DNA from: Pectobacterium punjabense
GTDB taxonomy: Bacteria; Pseudomonadota; Gammaproteobacteria; Enterobacterales; Enterobacteriaceae
Assembly (NCBI RefSeq): GCF_012427845.1
Contig: NZ_CP038498.1
Coordinates: 992,001 to 1,056,000 of the forward strand
DNA length: 64,000 nucleotides
Direction of reading: 5' to 3'
Shown here: positions 8,105 to 39,133 of the stretch, in pieces
Position numbering within the stretch: the stretch's first letter is position 1
Layout of the letters: each line of letters begins with the position of its first letter
The notes under the pieces: model-generated
Database searches by the model: none
The model's input: the letters and a program-made list of their open reading frames with translations, nothing else
Told to the model about the DNA's origin: nothing
Translations under genes and position numbers: made by a program

Positions 8105-10309
8105 ATGTCTTTTGGAGTTACTCGCGCCGGAAAAATGCGCGTTTGTGATTCTTCGTTGGCCGGAGTAAAACCATTCGGAGTCTCTCTTCTCGCCCTATTG
8201 ATTTCCGCTTCTTTCCTGCCTGCTCAGGCCGCTACCGAAGAAAAACCAACTTCCGGTGATACGCTTGTCGTCAGCGCGAATGCTAACGCTAACGCAGAAG
8301 TTAGCGACCCGCAGGATTACAGCGTGAAAGTCACTAACGCTGGAACTAAGATGACGTTGACGCCGCGTGATATTCCGCAGTCGGTGAGTGTCATCAGTAA
8401 GCAGCGTATCGAAGATCAGAACTTGCAAACGATTGGTGAGGTGATGGCAAACACGACGGGAGTCTTTGCCAACAATATCGATTCCGACCGCTCTAGTTAC
8501 TATTCTCGTGGTTTTCTGATCAATAATTACTTATTCGACGGTATTCCAACCGTAGTGGATGATATCTGGGATTTTGGTGACTCAGGTTCCGATACGGCAA
8601 TCTATGACCGTATTGAAGTGGTGCGTGGCGCGACAGGGCTGATGACGGGAACGGGTAATCCTTCTGCTGCCGTAAATATGGTGCGTAAGCATGCGGACAG
8701 CCGTGAATTCAAAGGTTCTGTGTCTGGCAGTTACGGTTCATGGAATAACCAGCGGATGGTGACCGATTTGTCTGCGCCGCTGACGGAATCCGGCAACGTG
8801 CGCGGGCGAGTAGTCGCGGGCTATCAGGATAATGACACTCGGCTCGATCGTTATCATAAACGAAAAAAATTCCTCTACGGTGTGGTCGATGCCGATGTGA
8901 CTGACTCGACGACGATCTCCCTAGGTTATGATTATCAGGAAAGTAATACAGACAGCCCAACCTGGGGCGGGCTGCCGACGTGGTTTACTGACGGTAGCTC
9001 TACACATTTTGGTCGTAGCTTTAATACCGCGCCAAACTGGAGCTACTCCGATAAAACGTCGAGAAAAGTGTTTGCCGATCTGACTCAGCGTTTTGATAAC
9101 GGCTGGCAACTGCGTATGAACGGAACGCATGCCGAAACCAACTTCGATTCCAAGCTGATGTATGCCAATGGTTTCCCGGATAAAGATACCGGAATACTTG
9201 TTGATCCGTTTGGGGCTAATGTGGGTGCTTACGGTGGATGGAATAAAGGAACACGTAAGGTCGATTCTATCGATACCTACGCCTCTGGCCCGTTCGAGCT
9301 ACTGGGACGCCAGCATGAGCTGGTGGTAGGCGGTAGCTACAGCCGACAACGTAACCAGTTCTATAATTCCCAATCGACGATCGATCCGGCAGATATGGGC
9401 AATTACTACAACTGGAATGGCAATATTGCCGATCCAGCATGGGGAGCCTGGGTGGATTATGAGCATTCTACGTTACGCCAAAAATCACTCTATACCTCAG
9501 CGCGTTTCTCTCTGGCCGATCCGCTGCACTTAATCGCTGGTGCGCGTTATACCGACTGGAGCATCATCGGTTCGACGGGGGATACCAGTAAGAGTCGGGT
9601 GACGCCTTATGTCGGTCTGGTTTATGACATTAACGATACCTGGTCGACGTATGCCAGCTACACCGATATCTTCCAGCCGCAAACAAAGAAAGAAGGGCCT
9701 AACACGTATCTGGCTCCTGTAACGGGTAAAAACTATGAAGCAGGTCTGAAAGGAGATTGGTACAACAGCCGTCTAACTGCTTCAGTTGCCGTGTTCCGTA
9801 TTGAACAGGATAACTTGGCTGAGGCACTGCCCCCTTCTGGCGCACCTGAAACCTATTACCGGTCTGTTGATGGTATGGTGAGCAAAGGCATCGAGTTTGA
9901 AGTCAATGGTGCGGTGACAGATAACTTGCAAATGACGTTTGGTGGCTCTCGCTTCGTTGCCGACGATAAAGATGGTAAGTCGATCAACTCATATCTACCG
10001 CGTACGTCACTTAAGCTGTTTACCCGCTATCAGTTGCCAATGCTGCCGGACTTAACCGTCGGCGGCGGCGTGAACTGGCAAAATGGTATCTGGCAAGAAG
10101 GCTCTGGTCCGCAACGTACCACGTTGCGTGTCGAGCAGGGCAGCTACGCGCTGGTTAATCTGTTTAGCCGTTATCAGGTAACGAAACAGCTGGCGGTGCA
10201 GGCGAATATCAACAACCTGTTTGATAAAGAGTACAGCGATTTCCTTGCACCTTATGCCGTGTATGGTGCGCCTCGTAGCGTCTCGATGACCGTTAACTAT
10301 GCGTTCTAG
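8105..10309 (+). CDS. fhuE: TonB-dependent ferric siderophore receptor, FhuE type
   Basis: 734 residues with a signal peptide (cleavage near AQA-A), a TonB-box-like GDTLVVSA (about residues 51-58), a plug domain (about 75-200) containing RDIPQSVSVISKQRIEDQNL and VVRGATGLMTGTGNPSAAVN, and a 22-strand beta-barrel that ends in VNYAF. The outer-membrane aromatic terminus is intact. Many blocks are near-identical to E. coli FhuE, including SPTWGGLP, FGRQHELV-like and ADPLHLI, so the likely ligands are hydroxamates such as coprogen or rhodotorulic acid. It is a single-gene unit with a candidate Fur box upstream and a terminator downstream. GAGG precedes the ATG. Confidence 0.88.
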   Translation: MSFGVTRAGKMRVCDSSLAGVKPFGVSLLALLISASFLPAQAATEEKPTSGDTLVVSANANANAEVSDPQDYSVKVTNAGTKMTLTPRDIPQSVSVISKQRIEDQNLQTIGEVMANTTGVFANNIDSDRSSYYSRGFLINNYLFDGIPTVVDDIWDFGDSGSDTAIYDRIEVVRGATGLMTGTGNPSAAVNMVRKHADSREFKGSVSGSYGSWNNQRMVTDLSAPLTESGNVRGRVVAGYQDNDTRLDRYHKRKKFLYGVVDADVTDSTTISLGYDYQESNTDSPTWGGLPTWFTDGSSTHFGRSFNTAPNWSYSDKTSRKVFADLTQRFDNGWQLRMNGTHAETNFDSKLMYANGFPDKDTGILVDPFGANVGAYGGWNKGTRKVDSIDTYASGPFELLGRQHELVVGGSYSRQRNQFYNSQSTIDPADMGNYYNWNGNIADPAWGAWVDYEHSTLRQKSLYTSARFSLADPLHLIAGARYTDWSIIGSTGDTSKSRVTPYVGLVYDINDTWSTYASYTDIFQPQTKKEGPNTYLAPVTGKNYEAGLKGDWYNSRLTASVAVFRIEQDNLAEALPPSGAPETYYRSVDGMVSKGIEFEVNGAVTDNLQMTFGGSRFVADDKDGKSINSYLPRTSLKLFTRYQLPMLPDLTVGGGVNWQNGIWQEGSGPQRTTLRVEQGSYALVNLFSRYQVTKQLAVQANINNLFDKEYSDFLAPYAVYGAPRSVSMTVNYAF

Positions 10310-28318: not shown

Positions 28319-28704
28319 TGAAAATTCTCCATCGCGCAATCTGTTTCTGCTCCGATTCTCAGTATCGCGGTTTTGATGAGCAGTATGTCTTTTTCGAAAC
28401 GGTAAATGATGAGCATGCTGGAGAACGCCTGCAGGCCATGTTATCTGAGGTCTGGGCTGTCCATGAATCTGCCGTGGGCATTTGTAATATCTCTTCGGAG
28501 AAACAACTGGTTCTTGATTCGCATGATGATTCTCCTGGACGTGGTGACAAGGCCCTGTTTGAAAATGGCTGGGATAATGGCTGCGTTCGGTATATTTCCC
28601 ATAACGATTGGCCCTTGATGTTAGTTTCTCCCCGAACTCACGAACGTCTGCTGAAAGTCTTTCTGAGTTTGAATGAAAGAAATGTGGAGGCGAACCATGG
28701 CTAA
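28315..28704 (+). CDS. Conserved ICE protein of unknown function (129 aa)
   Basis: Starts at ATG 28315 within an overlap with parA, with GAGG five bases upstream (ATG 28318 is an alternative), and its end overlaps the dnaB-like start by eight bases. The protein is soluble and acidic, with no motif I can name; notable strings are ICNISSEKQLVLDSHDD and WDNGCVRYIS. Its tight coupling between parA and the helicase argues that it is a real gene of the maintenance block. Confidence 0.65.
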   Translation: MMKILHRAICFCSDSQYRGFDEQYVFFETVNDEHAGERLQAMLSEVWAVHESAVGICNISSEKQLVLDSHDDSPGRGDKALFENGWDNGCVRYISHNDWPLMLVSPRTHERLLKVFLSLNERNVEANHG

Positions 28705-30058
28705 TCAAAAGCAAAAGGCATCACCTCCTCTCCCTTACTCCACGGGAGCTGAGCAATCTGTGCTCGGGTCGCTGATGCTCGATAATGAACGCTGGGATGA
28801 GGTTGTTCTCATTATTGGCGAGAATGACTTTTTTAATCTCATGCATCGCGTGATTTTTCGTGAAATGGCTCGTCTGGTTGGTGCCGGACAGCCTATAGAC
28901 TTAATTACGCTGTCCGACTCACTGGAGAAGCAGGGAAGCTCTCGTGAGGAACATATTTTTGCCTATCTTGCTGAGATGGCGAAAAACACGCCAAGTGCAG
29001 CGAATACAGTAGCATATTGTGAAATCGTTGCCAGAGACAGCCGGGCCAGACAGCTTGCCGCTCTTGGTGCAGATTTGACTCAGCAGGTTAGCCAGCCTCA
29101 TGCTGATATCCCCCAGATTATGGAGATGGCTGAACGACGAATTATTGATATTGCAGAAAAGGCTGATCCGCAAAAGACAATTACCGTCATTGACGGGCTT
29201 GAAAAGGTTGTGGCGGAGTTGGAGGTTCGCCATCGTTCCACCAATGGTATCACTGGTACGGCAACAGGATTTATCGAGCTGGATGCAAAAACCTGTGGCT
29301 TACAGAATGGCGATCTGATTTTGTTGGCAGCTCGCCCTTCAATGGGAAAGACGGCGTTAGGGCTAAACATGATCACCGGAACGCTAAATCACAATAGCGC
29401 CAATGTTACCCAGATATACAGCCTTGAGCAGCCTTCGACCCAACTCCTTATGCGTCTTATCTCTTCCATTGGGTTTGTTCCATTGCAAAACCTGCGTAGT
29501 GGCGATCTGACTGATGAGCAATGGTCACAGATTGGCTCGGCAGTTGAAACCATTACTAAATGGCAAAAAAGACTGGTTATCGATGATACCAGCGATCTTA
29601 CGCCAGCAATGCTGCGGGTGAGAGCCCGCCGTAATGCCAGGAAATACGGTAAACCCGCGTTGATAATGGTTGACTACCTGCAGCTAATGCGATGCCCCGA
29701 CATGGAGAACAGAACGCAGGAAATTGCTGAGATATCTCGTTCGCTAAAATCTCTGGCCAAGGAGATGGACTGCCCTGTTGTCGCGCTTTCTCAGCTTAAC
29801 CGCTCTCTGGAGCAGCGTGCTGATAAACGCCCCAATAATGGTGATTTACGTGATTCCGGTTCGCTCGAACAGGATGCGGATGTCACGTTATTTATTTATC
29901 GTGACGACGTTTACAACCCGAATAGTCCGGACAAAGGATTGGCAGAAATTATTATGGGTAAACAGCGTCAAGGGCCAATAGGAACCATAAAAGTTCAGTT
30001 TGACGGGCGTTTCACTCGCTTCACCAATATGCCTTTCGATGCTCAGGGAGGTTACTGA
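28697..30058 (+). CDS. dnaB: Replicative DnaB-like helicase of the ICE
   Basis: 453 residues from the ATG at 28697, chosen for GGAGG seven bases upstream. It has an N-terminal DnaB domain (about 12-115, PYSTGAEQSVLGSLMLDNER) and a RecA-like C-terminal domain with Walker A ARPSMGKT (about 212-219). MVDYLQLM is the Walker B region, and the family's SRSLKSLAKEM and LRDSGSLEQDADV blocks are intact. It would unwind DNA during autonomous replication of the excised element. The stop overlaps the next ATG by one base. Confidence 0.88.
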   Translation: MANQKQKASPPLPYSTGAEQSVLGSLMLDNERWDEVVLIIGENDFFNLMHRVIFREMARLVGAGQPIDLITLSDSLEKQGSSREEHIFAYLAEMAKNTPSAANTVAYCEIVARDSRARQLAALGADLTQQVSQPHADIPQIMEMAERRIIDIAEKADPQKTITVIDGLEKVVAELEVRHRSTNGITGTATGFIELDAKTCGLQNGDLILLAARPSMGKTALGLNMITGTLNHNSANVTQIYSLEQPSTQLLMRLISSIGFVPLQNLRSGDLTDEQWSQIGSAVETITKWQKRLVIDDTSDLTPAMLRVRARRNARKYGKPALIMVDYLQLMRCPDMENRTQEIAEISRSLKSLAKEMDCPVVALSQLNRSLEQRADKRPNNGDLRDSGSLEQDADVTLFIYRDDVYNPNSPDKGLAEIIMGKQRQGPIGTIKVQFDGRFTRFTNMPFDAQGGY

Positions 30059-31782
30059 TGGCGAGTAAACCGAAAGCGCTGAATATGACGGATGCGCTAC
30101 TGATGCGAGGAAAATCGCCAGCTCAACAATCGCAGGTCGCTGTACTACCTGTGAGTGAAATGGCGATGGTACTGACGCTCGACGAGCTGCGTCCTAACCC
30201 CGATAACCCCCGTACGTCGCGTAACCCTAAATATGCGGACATCAAAGCGTCTATCCGTATGCGTGGTCTGGATTCATTGCCTAAAGTGACCAGAGACCCT
30301 GATGGTGATGACATCTATATCTTTAGTGACGGAGGGAATACACGCTACCAGATATTGTGTGAACTCTATCAGGAAACCGGGGATGAACGATTCTATCGGA
30401 TCCATACGATATTCAAACCCTGGCCAGGACGTCTGCAATGCGTGATTGGTCATTTGGCCGAGAATGAAGTCCGTGGCGATTTAACCTATATCGAAAAGGC
30501 GTTCGGTATTCACAAGGCTCGAACGATTTGGGAAGAACAACTGGGGCGTAGTGTCACACTGCGTGAGCTTTCCGAACTGTTAAATCAGCAGGGTTATCCG
30601 ATTGATAACTCCAGTATCAGCCGTATGGAAGATACACTGAAATATTTGCATCCCCACCTGCCAAACCTGCTGAATTCTGGCTTAGCCCGTGTGAGAGTTT
30701 TACCACTATTGGCACTGCGCTCAGCGGCAGAGAAGACGTGGGCAAAGCATCAGATGCAGGTGGAACATGAATCTGTGTTTGATGACGTTTTTGGTCATGC
30801 CTGTCAGCAGTTTGATGACCCTGATCGGTATTCACTGGAAATGTTTCGTGATGAGCTGATTGGGGAGTTATTGAAAGCGCTGCCGCATCCGTCACTCAAC
30901 TACGATCGCTGGTTGATAGAGTTGGATCCCAAAGAGCAACAGCGCCGAGAATTATTTGGTGAGCCTCCGGCTCCACCTGTTGTGCAAGAGCCCATCCGTC
31001 AGCCATTAAAAGAGAATATCACTCAGCTTCCGCCACAAACAGGGCCAGAGAATCCGGTCACTGGCTTACGTTCAGGGACGCTTGTCGGTGGAGTAACTCG
31101 CCCCGAACCTGCTCCGGGTAACGCTCCAGAAACAGGGCTGACTCCTGATGCGGGTATGCAACCGATTGATGCAGGGATAGCTTCCACTTCGCCATATCGT
31201 GCCGAGCTTCAGCCGGATCTCTACGGTGGCCAGACGGTGATTGGTGGTGAAACGGTAAGCCCTATGGGAAATGGTTTTTCGCAGACATCATTGATGTCCG
31301 CGTTATCTGAAAACCGTGACAGCGCATTATTAGAAGAAGGACATGTTTCATCCTCTTCATCTGTTTCTTTTGCGGCTACAGGGCTGGAGCCTGTCGCGGA
31401 TATCTGGCACATACCTGCACTTCAGGACGACATTGAGCACCTACAGGATATGTCCTACAGACTGGCTTTTGAGTTGGCTGAAGCCATGGGATGTGCCGAC
31501 GATATTTCAGAAGCTAAACGCTGGGATCAGGCTGGCTATACCACGTCGGACACAAACAACAACGAGTTTGTTTTGTTGCTTGCCGGGCTGACTGGGGAAG
31601 ATCGCGAACTGCCTTTTAATACATTCGGTTTTTGCCTGAACTTCCTGGGTTTTCCTCAGAAATCCGGCTCTCCCGTCCTTCATGATGTCCATGCCGTGAA
31701 ATTTATGCGGTTGATTCGCGTGCTGCGCCGCTTGCGTGAACTGCAACGTGATGATGCCCGTGGAGGTGACCATGTCGCATGA
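30058..31782 (+). CDS. parB: ParB family protein of the ICE
   Basis: 574 residues, longer than chromosomal ParB (about 300). The ParB/Sulfiredoxin-like N-terminal domain is at about 40-130 (LRPNPDNPRTSRNPKYADI, then FSDGGNTRYQIL). A helix-turn-helix region follows (about 150-200, LRELSELLNQQGYPIDNSSI). A long proline/glycine-rich linker (about 300-440) leads to a C-terminal domain typical of this ICE family. It is translationally coupled to the helicase and probably partners ParA at 27431. The DNA site it binds is unknown; the repeats near 34683 and 35324 are candidates. Confidence 0.8.
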   Translation: MASKPKALNMTDALLMRGKSPAQQSQVAVLPVSEMAMVLTLDELRPNPDNPRTSRNPKYADIKASIRMRGLDSLPKVTRDPDGDDIYIFSDGGNTRYQILCELYQETGDERFYRIHTIFKPWPGRLQCVIGHLAENEVRGDLTYIEKAFGIHKARTIWEEQLGRSVTLRELSELLNQQGYPIDNSSISRMEDTLKYLHPHLPNLLNSGLARVRVLPLLALRSAAEKTWAKHQMQVEHESVFDDVFGHACQQFDDPDRYSLEMFRDELIGELLKALPHPSLNYDRWLIELDPKEQQRRELFGEPPAPPVVQEPIRQPLKENITQLPPQTGPENPVTGLRSGTLVGGVTRPEPAPGNAPETGLTPDAGMQPIDAGIASTSPYRAELQPDLYGGQTVIGGETVSPMGNGFSQTSLMSALSENRDSALLEEGHVSSSSSVSFAATGLEPVADIWHIPALQDDIEHLQDMSYRLAFELAEAMGCADDISEAKRWDQAGYTTSDTNNNEFVLLLAGLTGEDRELPFNTFGFCLNFLGFPQKSGSPVLHDVHAVKFMRLIRVLRRLRELQRDDARGGDHVA

Positions 31783-33786: not shown

Positions 33787-34028
33787 TGATACTTGCCGAT
33801 AAATCGTATGTTCTGGGGGCGATGTTCATTCAGTTCCTGCTGGCTGATGAGCTGTGGTATACAACAACCAGAAGCGAAGGGATCATTTATCATGTGATTC
33901 ATTTGGGGTTCTCATCGTTAAAAAAACCGTCTTCCCGCTTTCCATTTCGAACTTTTCATATCATTACGTTCTCGTTTCTTATCATGAATGTCCGTGTTGG
34001 ATTGATTCAAACAAACGGTAAGCGATGA
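33786..34028 (+). CDS. Small hypothetical protein (80 aa)
   Basis: Coupled to the preceding gene by a one-base overlap and to the following gene by ATGA. AGGAG lies nine bases upstream of the ATG. The product starts MILADKSYVLGAMFIQFLLA and has two moderately hydrophobic stretches. It has no recognisable domain, and the C-terminal half is unusually rich in Phe/Ile, so part of it may be non-conserved. Confidence 0.42.
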   Translation: MILADKSYVLGAMFIQFLLADELWYTTTRSEGIIYHVIHLGFSSLKKPSSRFPFRTFHIITFSFLIMNVRVGLIQTNGKR

Positions 34029-35323
34029 TGGGATTACCTGCTGACAGTGTCATCGCATTCACACTCCAGAGAATGGAGGAGGGTATTTCCCGACAGGGAA
34101 ATAGTGACTCCTCGAGCCCAGTCAATGAACGTAGCGGATTGCTTTATCTGGGGAATGTGCATGATGCCGTTCCCCGGCGACTGTTTCTGGATAGCAGGCT
34201 TAGCCCGCTGGATAAAACAGCATGGGTGATGATCCGTTTATATGCCCAGCAAAATGATGGTGCGGTATTTCCTACATACGATGAGCTGCAACTCCAGTTG
34301 GCTTCACCTCACGCAGAGAAAGCCTCGCGCGAAACCATCAGCCGTACGCTGCTAATGTTGCGAATAACCGGCTGGCTTAGTCTTTGTAAACGTGTGCGCG
34401 ATGAGTATGGGCGCGTACGCGGGAATATCTACGCTCAACATGATGAGCCGCTGAGCTGCCGCGATGCGGAAACGTTCGATCCAGGCTGGCTGGATTTGGT
34501 TGCACGCAGCTGCGGACATAAAAATAAATCCGTACGGATGACCGCACTCAATGTTTTGGAGGCGATCCGCAACGACCCCTCCATGCGACATCGTCATTCC
34601 AGAGTGTCCATGATTGAGGCACGCCTGGATTCACCATCAACGCCCTCTCAACTGGCATCACTCCAGCGGGGAATGCAGCCGGGTTCGAATTCCGAACTCA
34701 GTAAAAAACAAGGCGAGATAAGGGAAAAATCACTGAGTTCGGAATCCGAACTTAGTGATGGGAATAGCAATAATACACAGAGTTCGGAATCCGAACTCTG
34801 TCTAAAATCAACAGGTTATAACCAAGTTCGAAAATCGAACTGTAACGTACGTAGTTTCACACACAGTGTGAATAAAAAAACGTACGTACCCGAGGGAAGG
34901 GATCGTTTAACGCTGCCTGAAGCGTTGCTCAGCCGGATCAAGCCCCATGATGCCGACATGTTGACCAGGCAGCTCTCCGTATTGCCGGATGAGCAAGCAT
35001 CTGCTCTGCTGACCATGCTGAATACACAGCTCAAGCGCGGGCAGTTAGCCAACCCACTTGGTTGGCTATTGTCGATGATGAAATGCGCCCGGGAAGGGCG
35101 ACTGGTGCTGCCAACTGAGCAAACAGAACAATCAACAGGAAGCGTAGCGCTTTCTGAAACGGCGAAGGGAAGAGCGTCGGCAACAATGACACCAACGGTG
35201 GAGCGTCCCGCTCCTGAGCTGGCAGAAAGCCTTCCTGCGCAGCCAGCCTCCAAGGCGAGTCAGGAAAGAGTTTCCAGCCTGGTTTCTGATATCAGAGCCA
35301 GAATATTGAACGCTGGAAAATAA
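34025..35323 (+). CDS. STY4528-like ICE replication-associated protein
   Basis: 432 residues. The N-terminal half (about 45-150) contains a winged-helix region: DKTAWVMIRLYAQQNDGAVF, then TISRTLLMLRITGWLSLCKR. The middle (about 220-290) is a low-complexity Ser/Glu-rich linker and the C-terminus a helical domain. The layout and place between DUF2857 and topB fit the STY4528 pathogenicity-island replication protein. The linker-coding DNA carries four 15-bp palindromes, so the coding sequence doubles as a DNA site. It ends at the start of the repeat array. Confidence 0.7.
   Translation: MMGLPADSVIAFTLQRMEEGISRQGNSDSSSPVNERSGLLYLGNVHDAVPRRLFLDSRLSPLDKTAWVMIRLYAQQNDGAVFPTYDELQLQLASPHAEKASRETISRTLLMLRITGWLSLCKRVRDEYGRVRGNIYAQHDEPLSCRDAETFDPGWLDLVARSCGHKNKSVRMTALNVLEAIRNDPSMRHRHSRVSMIEARLDSPSTPSQLASLQRGMQPGSNSELSKKQGEIREKSLSSESELSDGNSNNTQSSESELCLKSTGYNQVRKSNCNVRSFTHSVNKKTYVPEGRDRLTLPEALLSRIKPHDADMLTRQLSVLPDEQASALLTMLNTQLKRGQLANPLGWLLSMMKCAREGRLVLPTEQTEQSTGSVALSETAKGRASATMTPTVERPAPELAESLPAQPASKASQERVSSLVSDIRARILNAGK
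34683..34840. repeat. Four GTTCG-N5-CGAAC palindromes inside a coding sequence
   Basis: GTTCGAATTCCGAAC (34683-34697), GTTCGGAATCCGAAC (34737-34751 and 34782-34796) and GTTCGAAAATCGAAC (34826-34840) share invariant arms, with starts 54, 45 and 44 bp apart. The two middle sites extend to AGTTCGGAATCCGAACT. They lie in the linker-coding part of the STY4528-like gene. Regular spacing and conserved arms point to a protein-binding iteron or operator set. Confidence 0.8.
34844..34888. repeat. Paired AACGTACGTA repeats around a CAC palindrome
   Basis: AACGTACGTA occurs at 34844-34853 and 34879-34888. Between them TTCACAC-ACA-GTGTGAA (34856-34872) forms a seven-base-pair palindrome. They follow directly on the GTTCG array and are probably part of the same control or origin region. 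Confidence 0.6.
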
Positions 35324-35710
35324 GGTGGTTAAAAATTGTGCTTGCTGCCAGTGGCAGAAAGGTCAAGAAATGAGCAACCTGATGTCCAGGATGGCATGCG
35401 GGGTATCTGGCTAGTACGGATTTGGTGTGGTGGTTAAAAAGTGTACTGTGTTGCGCCCCGCAACACAGTATGAAAAACAACCAGTGCGATATTCAGGGTG
35501 GTATACGGGATATCAGGTCAGTACGGATTTGGCTGTATGGTTAAAAAGTGTACTTTGCTGCCACTGGCAGCACGGTATGAAAAACAACCAATGTGATATT
35601 TAGGGTGATATTTAGGGTGATATTCGGGGTACCTGGTTAGCGTGGATTTGGTCGTGTGGTGAAAAAGCGTACTTGTTGCGCCCCGCAACAAGGCTAAAAA
35701 ACAACCATAT
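35324..35710. repeat. Four-unit direct-repeat array with alternating hairpins (candidate origin)
   Basis: Units begin with TGGTTAAAAA at 35326, 35431, 35538 and TGGTGAAAAA at 35657, i.e. every 105-119 bp. Each holds a hairpin: CTGCC-AGT-GGCAG (35345), TACTGTGTTGCG/CGCAACACAGTA (35444-35470), TGCTGCC/GGCAGCA (35556-35572) and CTTGTTGCG/CGCAACAAG (35672-35692), so two hairpin types alternate. Three units share GAAAAACAACCA- or AAAACAACC-like tails; two or three share GTACGGATTTGG. Unit 3 carries a 12-bp tandem triplication (GATATTTAGGGT). No gene is present. pKLC102 has repeat-rich oriV DNA, which makes an origin the leading guess. Confidence 0.75.
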
Positions 35711-35828
35711 TGATGCGCTTGCGTCAAATTCGTGAAACCAATATTGAGTTTTGCGTTGTTGGGGGAGTCCTCTTTATTAACTATTTAGTCTTTCTTAACT
35801 GATTAATTAACAGGTTAGAGAGACAACG

Positions 35829-36581
35829 ATGGCTGAAAGAGTTGGAAAGACGACGGGTGCATTGCAGTCTGAGTTAAAAATTGAATTGCATACTAACTAT
35901 GCAATCAATCTCTGGGTAGGGCGCCGAAGAGTAAAACAGAATGACGAAAATGGTGTTGCTGCCCGTCCTCCTATTATGGGAATGCCCGGGTTCCTGCATC
36001 AGGCTGCGCGTATCAACAGCGATTCGCTGAAGAACAACCCATGGGCTGACAAGACCATGTTGGCTCTTGAGGAAAAACTCAATGAGGCCAGCACATTGAT
36101 GCATGAAGAAATTGCATCCCTGGATAAGGAAATGAATGTATTGCCTCGGGGAGTCACTCTGACGGAAGCCGTTGCTAAAGAGCCTCTGGACATCAAGGTA
36201 TACAGCAATTCGCCACTGGGATATCGCTGTGTCTATCTGCTGATTGGGTTTGACCAACTGGCTAAACAGGTTTTACAGGCATTTCACTATGGCTTGATTT
36301 CACGTAATCGTCGCGATCAGTTACTTCAGGGGAATGGTCGATCGCTACGCCAGATCTACTCGATTGTTTTGAAATACCGATCGGTTCCAGTGTCACGAAT
36401 TGACGCTATCGAACAAAATGAAGCCTGGCAAAAAGCCTGTGAGGCCTTAGGTGAGCCCGATCGTGATGTATTGCTGGGTAAGAAACGTTCCATATTCTCT
36501 CCGCCAATCCATGAAGCCAGCGTCAATTTGTTGCTCATGCACGATAAAGCGCGCGCGATTCCTACGTCAACTAATCGGTAG
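35829..36581 (+). CDS. TIGR03761 family ICE protein (PFL_4669-like)
   Basis: 250 residues, soluble, beginning MAERVGKTTGALQSELKIEL and containing PLGYRCVYLLIGFDQLAKQV and LLGKKRSIFSPPIHEASVNL, blocks I associate with the TIGR03761 family of the ICE backbone. It is placed between the repeat array and topB, like its relatives. Function is not known; a role in replication or DNA processing is inferred from context. Confidence 0.75.
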   Translation: MAERVGKTTGALQSELKIELHTNYAINLWVGRRRVKQNDENGVAARPPIMGMPGFLHQAARINSDSLKNNPWADKTMLALEEKLNEASTLMHEEIASLDKEMNVLPRGVTLTEAVAKEPLDIKVYSNSPLGYRCVYLLIGFDQLAKQVLQAFHYGLISRNRRDQLLQGNGRSLRQIYSIVLKYRSVPVSRIDAIEQNEAWQKACEALGEPDRDVLLGKKRSIFSPPIHEASVNLLLMHDKARAIPTSTNR

Positions 36582-38608: not shown

Positions 38609-39133
38609 CTGATTGCAGGCGGGGGGATGAGTTGTTATTGTGCATCCGGCTCTGAAGCCGCACCCCGTGACTGCGGTCTCTGTCAGCGTTTGCATAGCGT
38701 TGTCAGTGAACAGTCTGACTGACAGCTCCCTCACCTGAGAGCCGAGTCTGAAGGCACTAAAACTCCGTGAAACCAGTGTCGGGTCCTGAACATACCCCGG
38801 AGCTACTGTGAAAACAGATATACCGAAGATCGATGGTGCAGATCGTATGGCGGTGCCTTGTGGCACCGCTTTTTTTTTTATTTTCATTCTTCGGTGATGA
38901 GTTTTTCCATAGCCGGAAGATTGACTTCTTTTTCACCAGGTTTAATGATTAACAGGCCAATCGTTGTCTCTGACAACTGCCAATGTTCCCGTGATTTGAG
39001 AGGAGCGCCTTCGGGTAATCACATGCCAATGCCATCGTTAACCTGAGAGATGGCGCTTTCGAGCGGTAAATCTGTTTAACCTTTGAAAACAGAGACCGAA
39101 TACCGGTTAAGGCCCACTTCACTCATACAGCCA
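38609..39133. other. Noncoding region with terminator and hairpins downstream of topB
   Basis: No ORF of note. After the terminator at 38850, further inverted repeats appear: GCCATC/GATGGC (39031-39036, 39049-39054) and TTAACC/GGTTAA (39076-39081, 39105-39110). The 240 bp before the terminator contain CTCCG/CGGAG and CTGAC/GTCAG complementary runs and could encode a small structured RNA. No family recognised. Confidence 0.45.
38850..38879 (+). terminator. Strong intrinsic terminator
   Basis: GCGGTGCC-TTGT-GGCACCGC is a perfect eight-base-pair stem followed by ten T residues. It closes the upstream (topB) transcription unit or a small RNA encoded just before it, so the STY4534-like gene needs its own promoter. 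Confidence 0.9.

Follow-up and report, generated by a model that had tools for sequence, protein, structure and literature searches.

A likely replication origin inside the gene of its predicted STY4528-family initiator in an SPI-7/pKLC102-type integrative and conjugative element

Results

Here we describe a candidate replication origin in a 64-kb stretch of Pectobacterium punjabense DNA (contig NZ_CP038498.1, positions 992,001 to 1,056,000; hereafter the window) that carries an integrative and conjugative element (ICE) of the SPI-7/pKLC102 type. Central to this work is a plus-strand gene (34025..35323) for a predicted replication initiator of 432 amino acids, matched at 414.5 bits (cut-off 130) by NF040582, to which NCBIfam gives the name 'STY4528 family replication protein'. 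AlphaFold2 predicts a winged-helix N-terminal half, with a recognition helix at residues 102-114 (34328..34366, plus strand; codon of E103 at 34331-34333), followed by a disordered linker and a helical C-terminal domain. The linker is the part encoded by the putative origin DNA.

An earlier sequence-only reading had noticed four palindromes of the form GTTCG-N5-CGAAC, 44-54 bp apart, within this gene, followed by paired sites around a CAC palindrome, and both features were recovered. The palindromes (iterons 1 to 4; like the words below, unstranded) are GTTCGAATTCCGAAC at 34683..34697, GTTCGGAATCCGAAC at 34737..34751 and again at 34782..34796, and GTTCGAAAATCGAAC at 34826..34840, at distances of 54, 45 and 44 bp. 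They are the only exact copies in the window, where 0.01 would be expected and none of 100 shuffled windows held four; the whole 4.79-Mb genome has seven copies, four of which lie inside these 158 bp. Allowing up to three mismatches, we found 18 places against 22 expected, and the known four formed the sole cluster. Immediately beyond iteron 4, two AACGTACGTA words (34844..34853 and 34879..34888) flank the palindrome TTCACACACAGTGTGAA (34856..34872), which shows paired arm changes in several relatives; outside the module, TTAAAAANNGTAC-type words are few in the window. Between iterons 3 and 4 lies a site with the consensus for integration host factor (IHF), AATCAACAGGTTA (34806..34818, plus strand), and between the paired words a DnaA box, TTATTCACA (34867..34875, minus strand; consensus TTWTNCACA). 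GC content falls to 37-40% at 34700-34899, compared with 49-57% in the adjoining 100-bp windows.

We compared this module across the best 80 of 84 related loci, which a single protein scan of named genomes supplied. With the window counted, 80 of 81 genes have an anchor, a ACGTACGT- or ATGTACGT-type word, from which positions are given below. At least one exact GTTCGN5CGAAC lies in the gene, or just 3' of it, in 64 of the 80 loci. Seven others (L012, L014, L026, L035, L079, L081 and L082) have the arm GTCCG instead, and the remaining nine, all Xenorhabdus, have looser TTCG-type sites only. The switch to GTCCG is incomplete at the level of single sites, since one site in L026 is still GTTCG-like and one in L079 is half-and-half; seven loci of the GTTCG class also have one half-and-half site each. 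Relatives commonly carry two to four palindromes, and at most six, at conserved places: measured from the ACGTACGT-type anchor, the slot of iteron 3 (-63) is occupied in 73 of 80 loci and that of iteron 4 (-19) in 54. An exact ACGTACGT pair occurs in 50 of 80 loci, with a separation of 35 bp in 43, 33 bp in one and 32 bp in six; 14 have a single exact word and 16 have none, of which 15 are Xenorhabdus loci, with ATGTACGT-type words where read.

The accessory sites recur in a similar manner. Among the 80 anchored loci, 51 have the exact IHF consensus WATCARNNNNTTR, at -39 in 49 and at -42 in two, with no copy at any other place in the first 1250 bp; a further 17 loci have it with one mismatch at -39. 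In 58 of 80, the paired words enclose a perfect TTWTNCACA on the minus strand. In ICEHin1056, an IHF consensus (minus strand) is found between palindromes 3 and 4 and a DnaA box right after palindrome 4; neither consensus was found within the gene of pKLC102, L129 or two Stutzerimonas plasmids. All five of these, read by eye, have GTAC-containing words around an AT-rich stretch past the last palindrome.

This arrangement bears on the possibility that the palindromes are not an origin but operators for transcriptional control by STY4528 or a different regulator. Dimeric palindromes can indeed serve as operators, and the product of the next gene has a predicted AcaB fold. Nevertheless, the palindromes begin about 660 bp into the coding sequence, recur in two to four (up to six) copies and come with IHF and DnaA sites as well as a drop in GC content, and we consider an operator role highly improbable.

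Constraint at the DNA level was assessed in 38 dereplicated genes with mutual amino-acid identity below 85%, excluding the interrupted L006 and L083. Where the amino acid is the same, codon identity is 2.1-2.8 times the expectation over codons 221-290 (34685-34894), compared with 0.8-1.6 times in all other ten-codon blocks of the gene. Codons 275 and 276, within the left AACGTACGTA word, are GTA and CGT in 38 of 38 genes, and codon 264, whose amino acid varies, preserves the IHF consensus by ending in T in 35 of 38. Because iterons 3 and 4 lie in different reading frames, a single protein motif cannot account for both. The proposal that DNA-level constraint dominates the linker region thus holds up, and in the alignment across related ICEs that had been suggested as its check the palindrome arms are conserved while linker residues drift. 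Judged from these comparisons, the DNA at 34683-34888 is conserved beyond the needs of the encoded protein.

Several relatives showed further features. DNA matches to the query also occur in 21 plasmid records and in 152 of 5426 complete E. coli genomes, none exceeding 80% of the query. We dropped plasmid carriage as proof of replication, since a different initiator is annotated on pEB102 and pNBBC01-4. In E. coli NS-NP030 (L128, 2500-2560) the origin module is reduced to a relic near Tn3 pieces and iroN, with no annotated initiator gene, and in a Mixta locus (L081, about 8690-8720) the STY4528 gene appears by eye to be broken near the second palindrome by unrelated transposase-like sequence. 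Distant loci (L089, L096, L102 and L146) repeat different palindromes within the gene, for example ACTTCAAAATCTGAAGT, AAGTTCAAAATTTGAACTT and GTTCCN5GGAAC.

We then related palindrome class to the initiator protein. In 81 STY4528 proteins, residue 103 of the predicted recognition helix was glutamate in 73 and glycine in one of the 74 GTTCG-class loci, and aspartate in all seven GTCCG-class loci. In a larger set with many closely related loci (L158 and L159 represent one gene, and L093 and L094 are near copies), the residue was readable in 138 of 140 loci. GTTCG sites accompany E103 in 92 of 96 loci, the other four having fewer than two sites; GTCCG sites accompany D103 in seven of eight, the eighth being truncated with a lone GTCCG site; and GTTCC sites accompany K103 in 13 of 14, with no site in the last. 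Among the 20 loci with other residues, L072 (G103) alone has at least two of these site types. R182 had been considered class-diagnostic from the 81 proteins and was dropped after the larger set, where leucine also occupies this position in 53 of 108 non-D103 proteins of the main set.

A second set of 109 proteins, 94 of them Salmonella-type relatives of L072, was classified by linker motifs. These classes are overlapping regular expressions, with both motifs present in 6 of 120 proteins of one set and 34 of 109 of the other, and 16 of 229 proteins unassigned. All 48 D103 proteins of the second set have the GTCCG-type motif, 17 of them together with the GTTCG-type motif, while the 40 G103 proteins have the GTTCG-type only (29), both (8), the GTCCG-type only (2) or neither (1). 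Over 229 proteins and 219 columns, column 103 alone separates the classes at 0.95 or above in both sets; its three exceptions (two G103, one H103) all belong to the Salmonella-type set. One protein, P0178, combines H103 with SADSAL in its linker, a peptide whose coding DNA could hold a fourth class of palindrome; no close copy of that DNA was found in 394 genomes.

Neighbouring proteins served as controls and bear on a second alternative, namely that the palindromes form a parS-like centromere bound by the element's ParB-family protein, a binder that the sequence-only reading had also offered. Nearby genes encode a ParA-like ATPase and a ParB-family protein (30058..31782, plus strand; TIGR03764, 399 bits), and palindrome clusters are typical of parS-like centromere sites. 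In 76 ParB proteins, however, the only class-disjoint columns (270, 295 and 310) are all hypervariable, in contrast to STY4528 residue 103, which is conserved per class and belongs to the predicted recognition helix; moreover, DnaA and IHF sites better suit an origin. A centromere is therefore very unlikely, and ParB is not the favoured binder. ParA has no class-disjoint column, and DnaB, DUF2857 and STY4534 have one variable column apiece; PFL_4669 has four, one of them conserved (V188), its class C being five members of one clade, and TopB has two, one conserved (K178; R or L in class C). Lineage alone can thus yield a few such columns. A tree built on residues 1-200 (42 rows, with column 103 kept in) requires at least two class changes, the second resting on L082, which has a long branch. 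On these alignments, it is recurrence that distinguishes residue 103 from the lineage-only columns.

About 435 bp past the module, an unstranded array of four hairpin repeats (35324..35713) begins. The sequence-only reading had placed a four-unit array about 440 bp downstream, which agrees in number and distance; the array is nevertheless intergenic, the STY4528 gene stopping at 35323. Its direct repeats start 105, 107 and 119 bp apart. Of their hairpins, all on the plus strand, unit 1 (35343..35363) has an imperfect right arm, and units 2 (35449..35465, TGTTGCGCCCCGCAACA), 3 (35556..35572, TGCTGCCACTGGCAGCA) and 4 (35674..35690, TGTTGCGCCCCGCAACA) are exact TGYTGN7CARCA hairpins, of which 0.34 would be expected per window and three were reached in one of 100 shuffles. 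Of 32 multi-unit arrays, 16 have hairpin tips that differ between their units, mostly remaining self-complementary and in six of the 16 through compensated pair changes. In a separate, lenient unit set, which lets in some units by chance (one of these lies in the window), 12 of 78 elements have no unit.

The array hairpins with their self-complementary variable tips would fit a third alternative, in which palindromes and array, instead of forming a replication origin, would make up an origin of transfer or a structured RNA. In ICEHin1056 about 7 kb separate the relaxase gene from STY4528, and in pKLC102, taken as a circle, about 15 kb, distances compatible with a transfer origin here. Against an RNA, Rfam found no family in origin or array at the gathering score and, at E ≤5 over 34000-36000, only five weak miRNA and snoRNA matches that we read as chance; nor, in the lenient unit set, is there a wobble excess among non-Watson-Crick hairpin cells (G-T 15, A-C 24, other 27). 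We regard this explanation as extremely improbable.

The array adjoins a PFL_4669-family gene (35829..36581, plus strand) with a predicted AcaB-like fold. Its product might bind the array and control the operon or copy number, apart from the origin proper. That tips differ within half of the multi-unit arrays and yet stay mostly self-complementary is unlike a fixed operator, and elements without any unit also speak against it, so that we hold this role to be possible but rather doubtful. A combined literature query on AcaB matched no paper. The array is a second, more variable part of the system and likely acts through extruded DNA hairpins or as sites for a neighbouring regulator.

Among the plus-strand neighbours are the ParA-like ATPase, an SPI-7-type DnaB helicase (28673..30058; NF040583, 759 bits), which is a likely partner of the initiator, the ICE ParB, DUF2857, STY4528, PFL_4669, topoisomerase III, STY4534 and SSB. 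A 99%-identical counterpart of a protein of the locus is named from Pectobacterium carotovorum. A STAXI RNA (RF01728, 121.7 bits) matches at 38962-39117, in the start of the STY4534-family gene region.

At the protein level, searches of solved structures by sequence gave nothing relevant for STY4528 or PFL_4669, and Foldseek gave no match at E ≤0.001 in the PDB or a viral library. A structural likeness was seen to chains 4pql and 4pta, which we take to be RepA-type chains. The C-terminal part of the STY4528 profile also matches alone in other proteins (rows G172, G206, G265 and others), hinting, at the level of profile matches, at a C-terminal domain common to several initiators.

Discussion

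The iterons, IHF site, DnaA box and AT-rich dip, together with their conserved place in an initiator-like gene, support the proposal of a putative ICE replication origin. We have good confidence that the window contains the replication origin of an SPI-7/pKLC102-type ICE and that this origin is embedded in the gene encoding its predicted initiator. Because residue 103 tracks palindrome class, STY4528 is very likely the initiator and its gene very likely contains the origin. In the mechanism we envisage, a STY4528 dimer would bind the four palindromes through its winged helix, and IHF would bend the DNA between iterons 3 and 4, possibly with help from DnaA in the process as a whole. Melting would occur in the AT-rich DNA that separates the ACGTACGT words, where the element's own DnaB could be loaded, perhaps via the C-terminal domain of STY4528. 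The linker, being predicted to be disordered, would be able to tolerate the sequence demands of origin DNA.

Beyond this locus, it seems about an even call whether the ICE and plasmid superfamily as a whole carries a self-contained initiator-plus-origin gene in which the iteron class is set by the single residue 103 (E, D or K) and the initiator sequence would thus reveal compatibility groups, with an adjoining DNA-hairpin array selected for self-complementarity and not for sequence. Replication after excision is reported for relatives, although the PFGI-1 paper (PMC2647930) states that no Rep protein is encoded. We can now name a likely initiator gene and a likely 206-bp origin, along with a three-state residue that predicts the sites of each version. 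This makes ICE replication, and possibly the incompatibility of co-resident ICEs, directly testable. It should also be borne in mind that in this coding region evolution is constrained by the DNA and not by the protein.

Parts of this system have precedents. A putative oriV was proposed for PFGI-1 of Pseudomonas Pf-5 (PMC2647930) and named for pKLC102 (PMC7685784; PMC2258188), and Haemophilus ICEs have a putative oriV with iteron-like repeats that was likened to pKLC102, SPI-7 and PAPI (PMC2258188). The PFGI-1/pKLC102 oriV resembles ours in its palindrome CTGAGTTCGGAATCCGAACTCAGT, described in four copies (PMC2647930), and in a direct-repeat array with inverted repeats or hairpins ahead of PFL_4669; the pKLC102 arms equal those of the window (GTTCGGN3CCGAAC-type). 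As compared with that description of PFGI-1, the window palindromes lie inside a likely initiator gene whose predicted recognition helix tracks their class, and IHF and DnaA sites are added. We found no paper joining STY4528 with the palindrome in the open-licence literature.

Origins within initiator genes are described for lambdoid phages (PMC7466680) and pSK41 (PMC5703833). As in the window, the account of lambda gives four inverted-repeat iterons in the middle of gene O, followed by an AT-rich stretch (PMC7466680). In contrast to lambda, the ICE has its own DnaB, and no Pfam match links STY4528 to O; an O-like PHROG match was weak (E 0.033) and came from the pKLC102 homologue alone. The portrayal of pSK41 agrees in layout, with a winged-helix N-terminal domain, four Rep boxes central in rep, an ori-encoded linker and a separate C-terminal domain (PMC5703833), where the window layout is a prediction. 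Unlike pSK41, the window system belongs to a Gram-negative ICE, and PF06970 (RepA_N) matched neither its STY4528 protein nor any of 50 family members at E 0.05. Seven of these 50 matched HTH_36, the domain given for the chimeric pPR9 Rep (PMC5703833). Thus, although the origin inside an initiator gene is already known as a kind, its occurrence in the STY4528 family with a likely specificity residue is new, as are the likely initiator, the IHF/DnaA module and hairpin tips that vary in sequence while remaining self-complementary.
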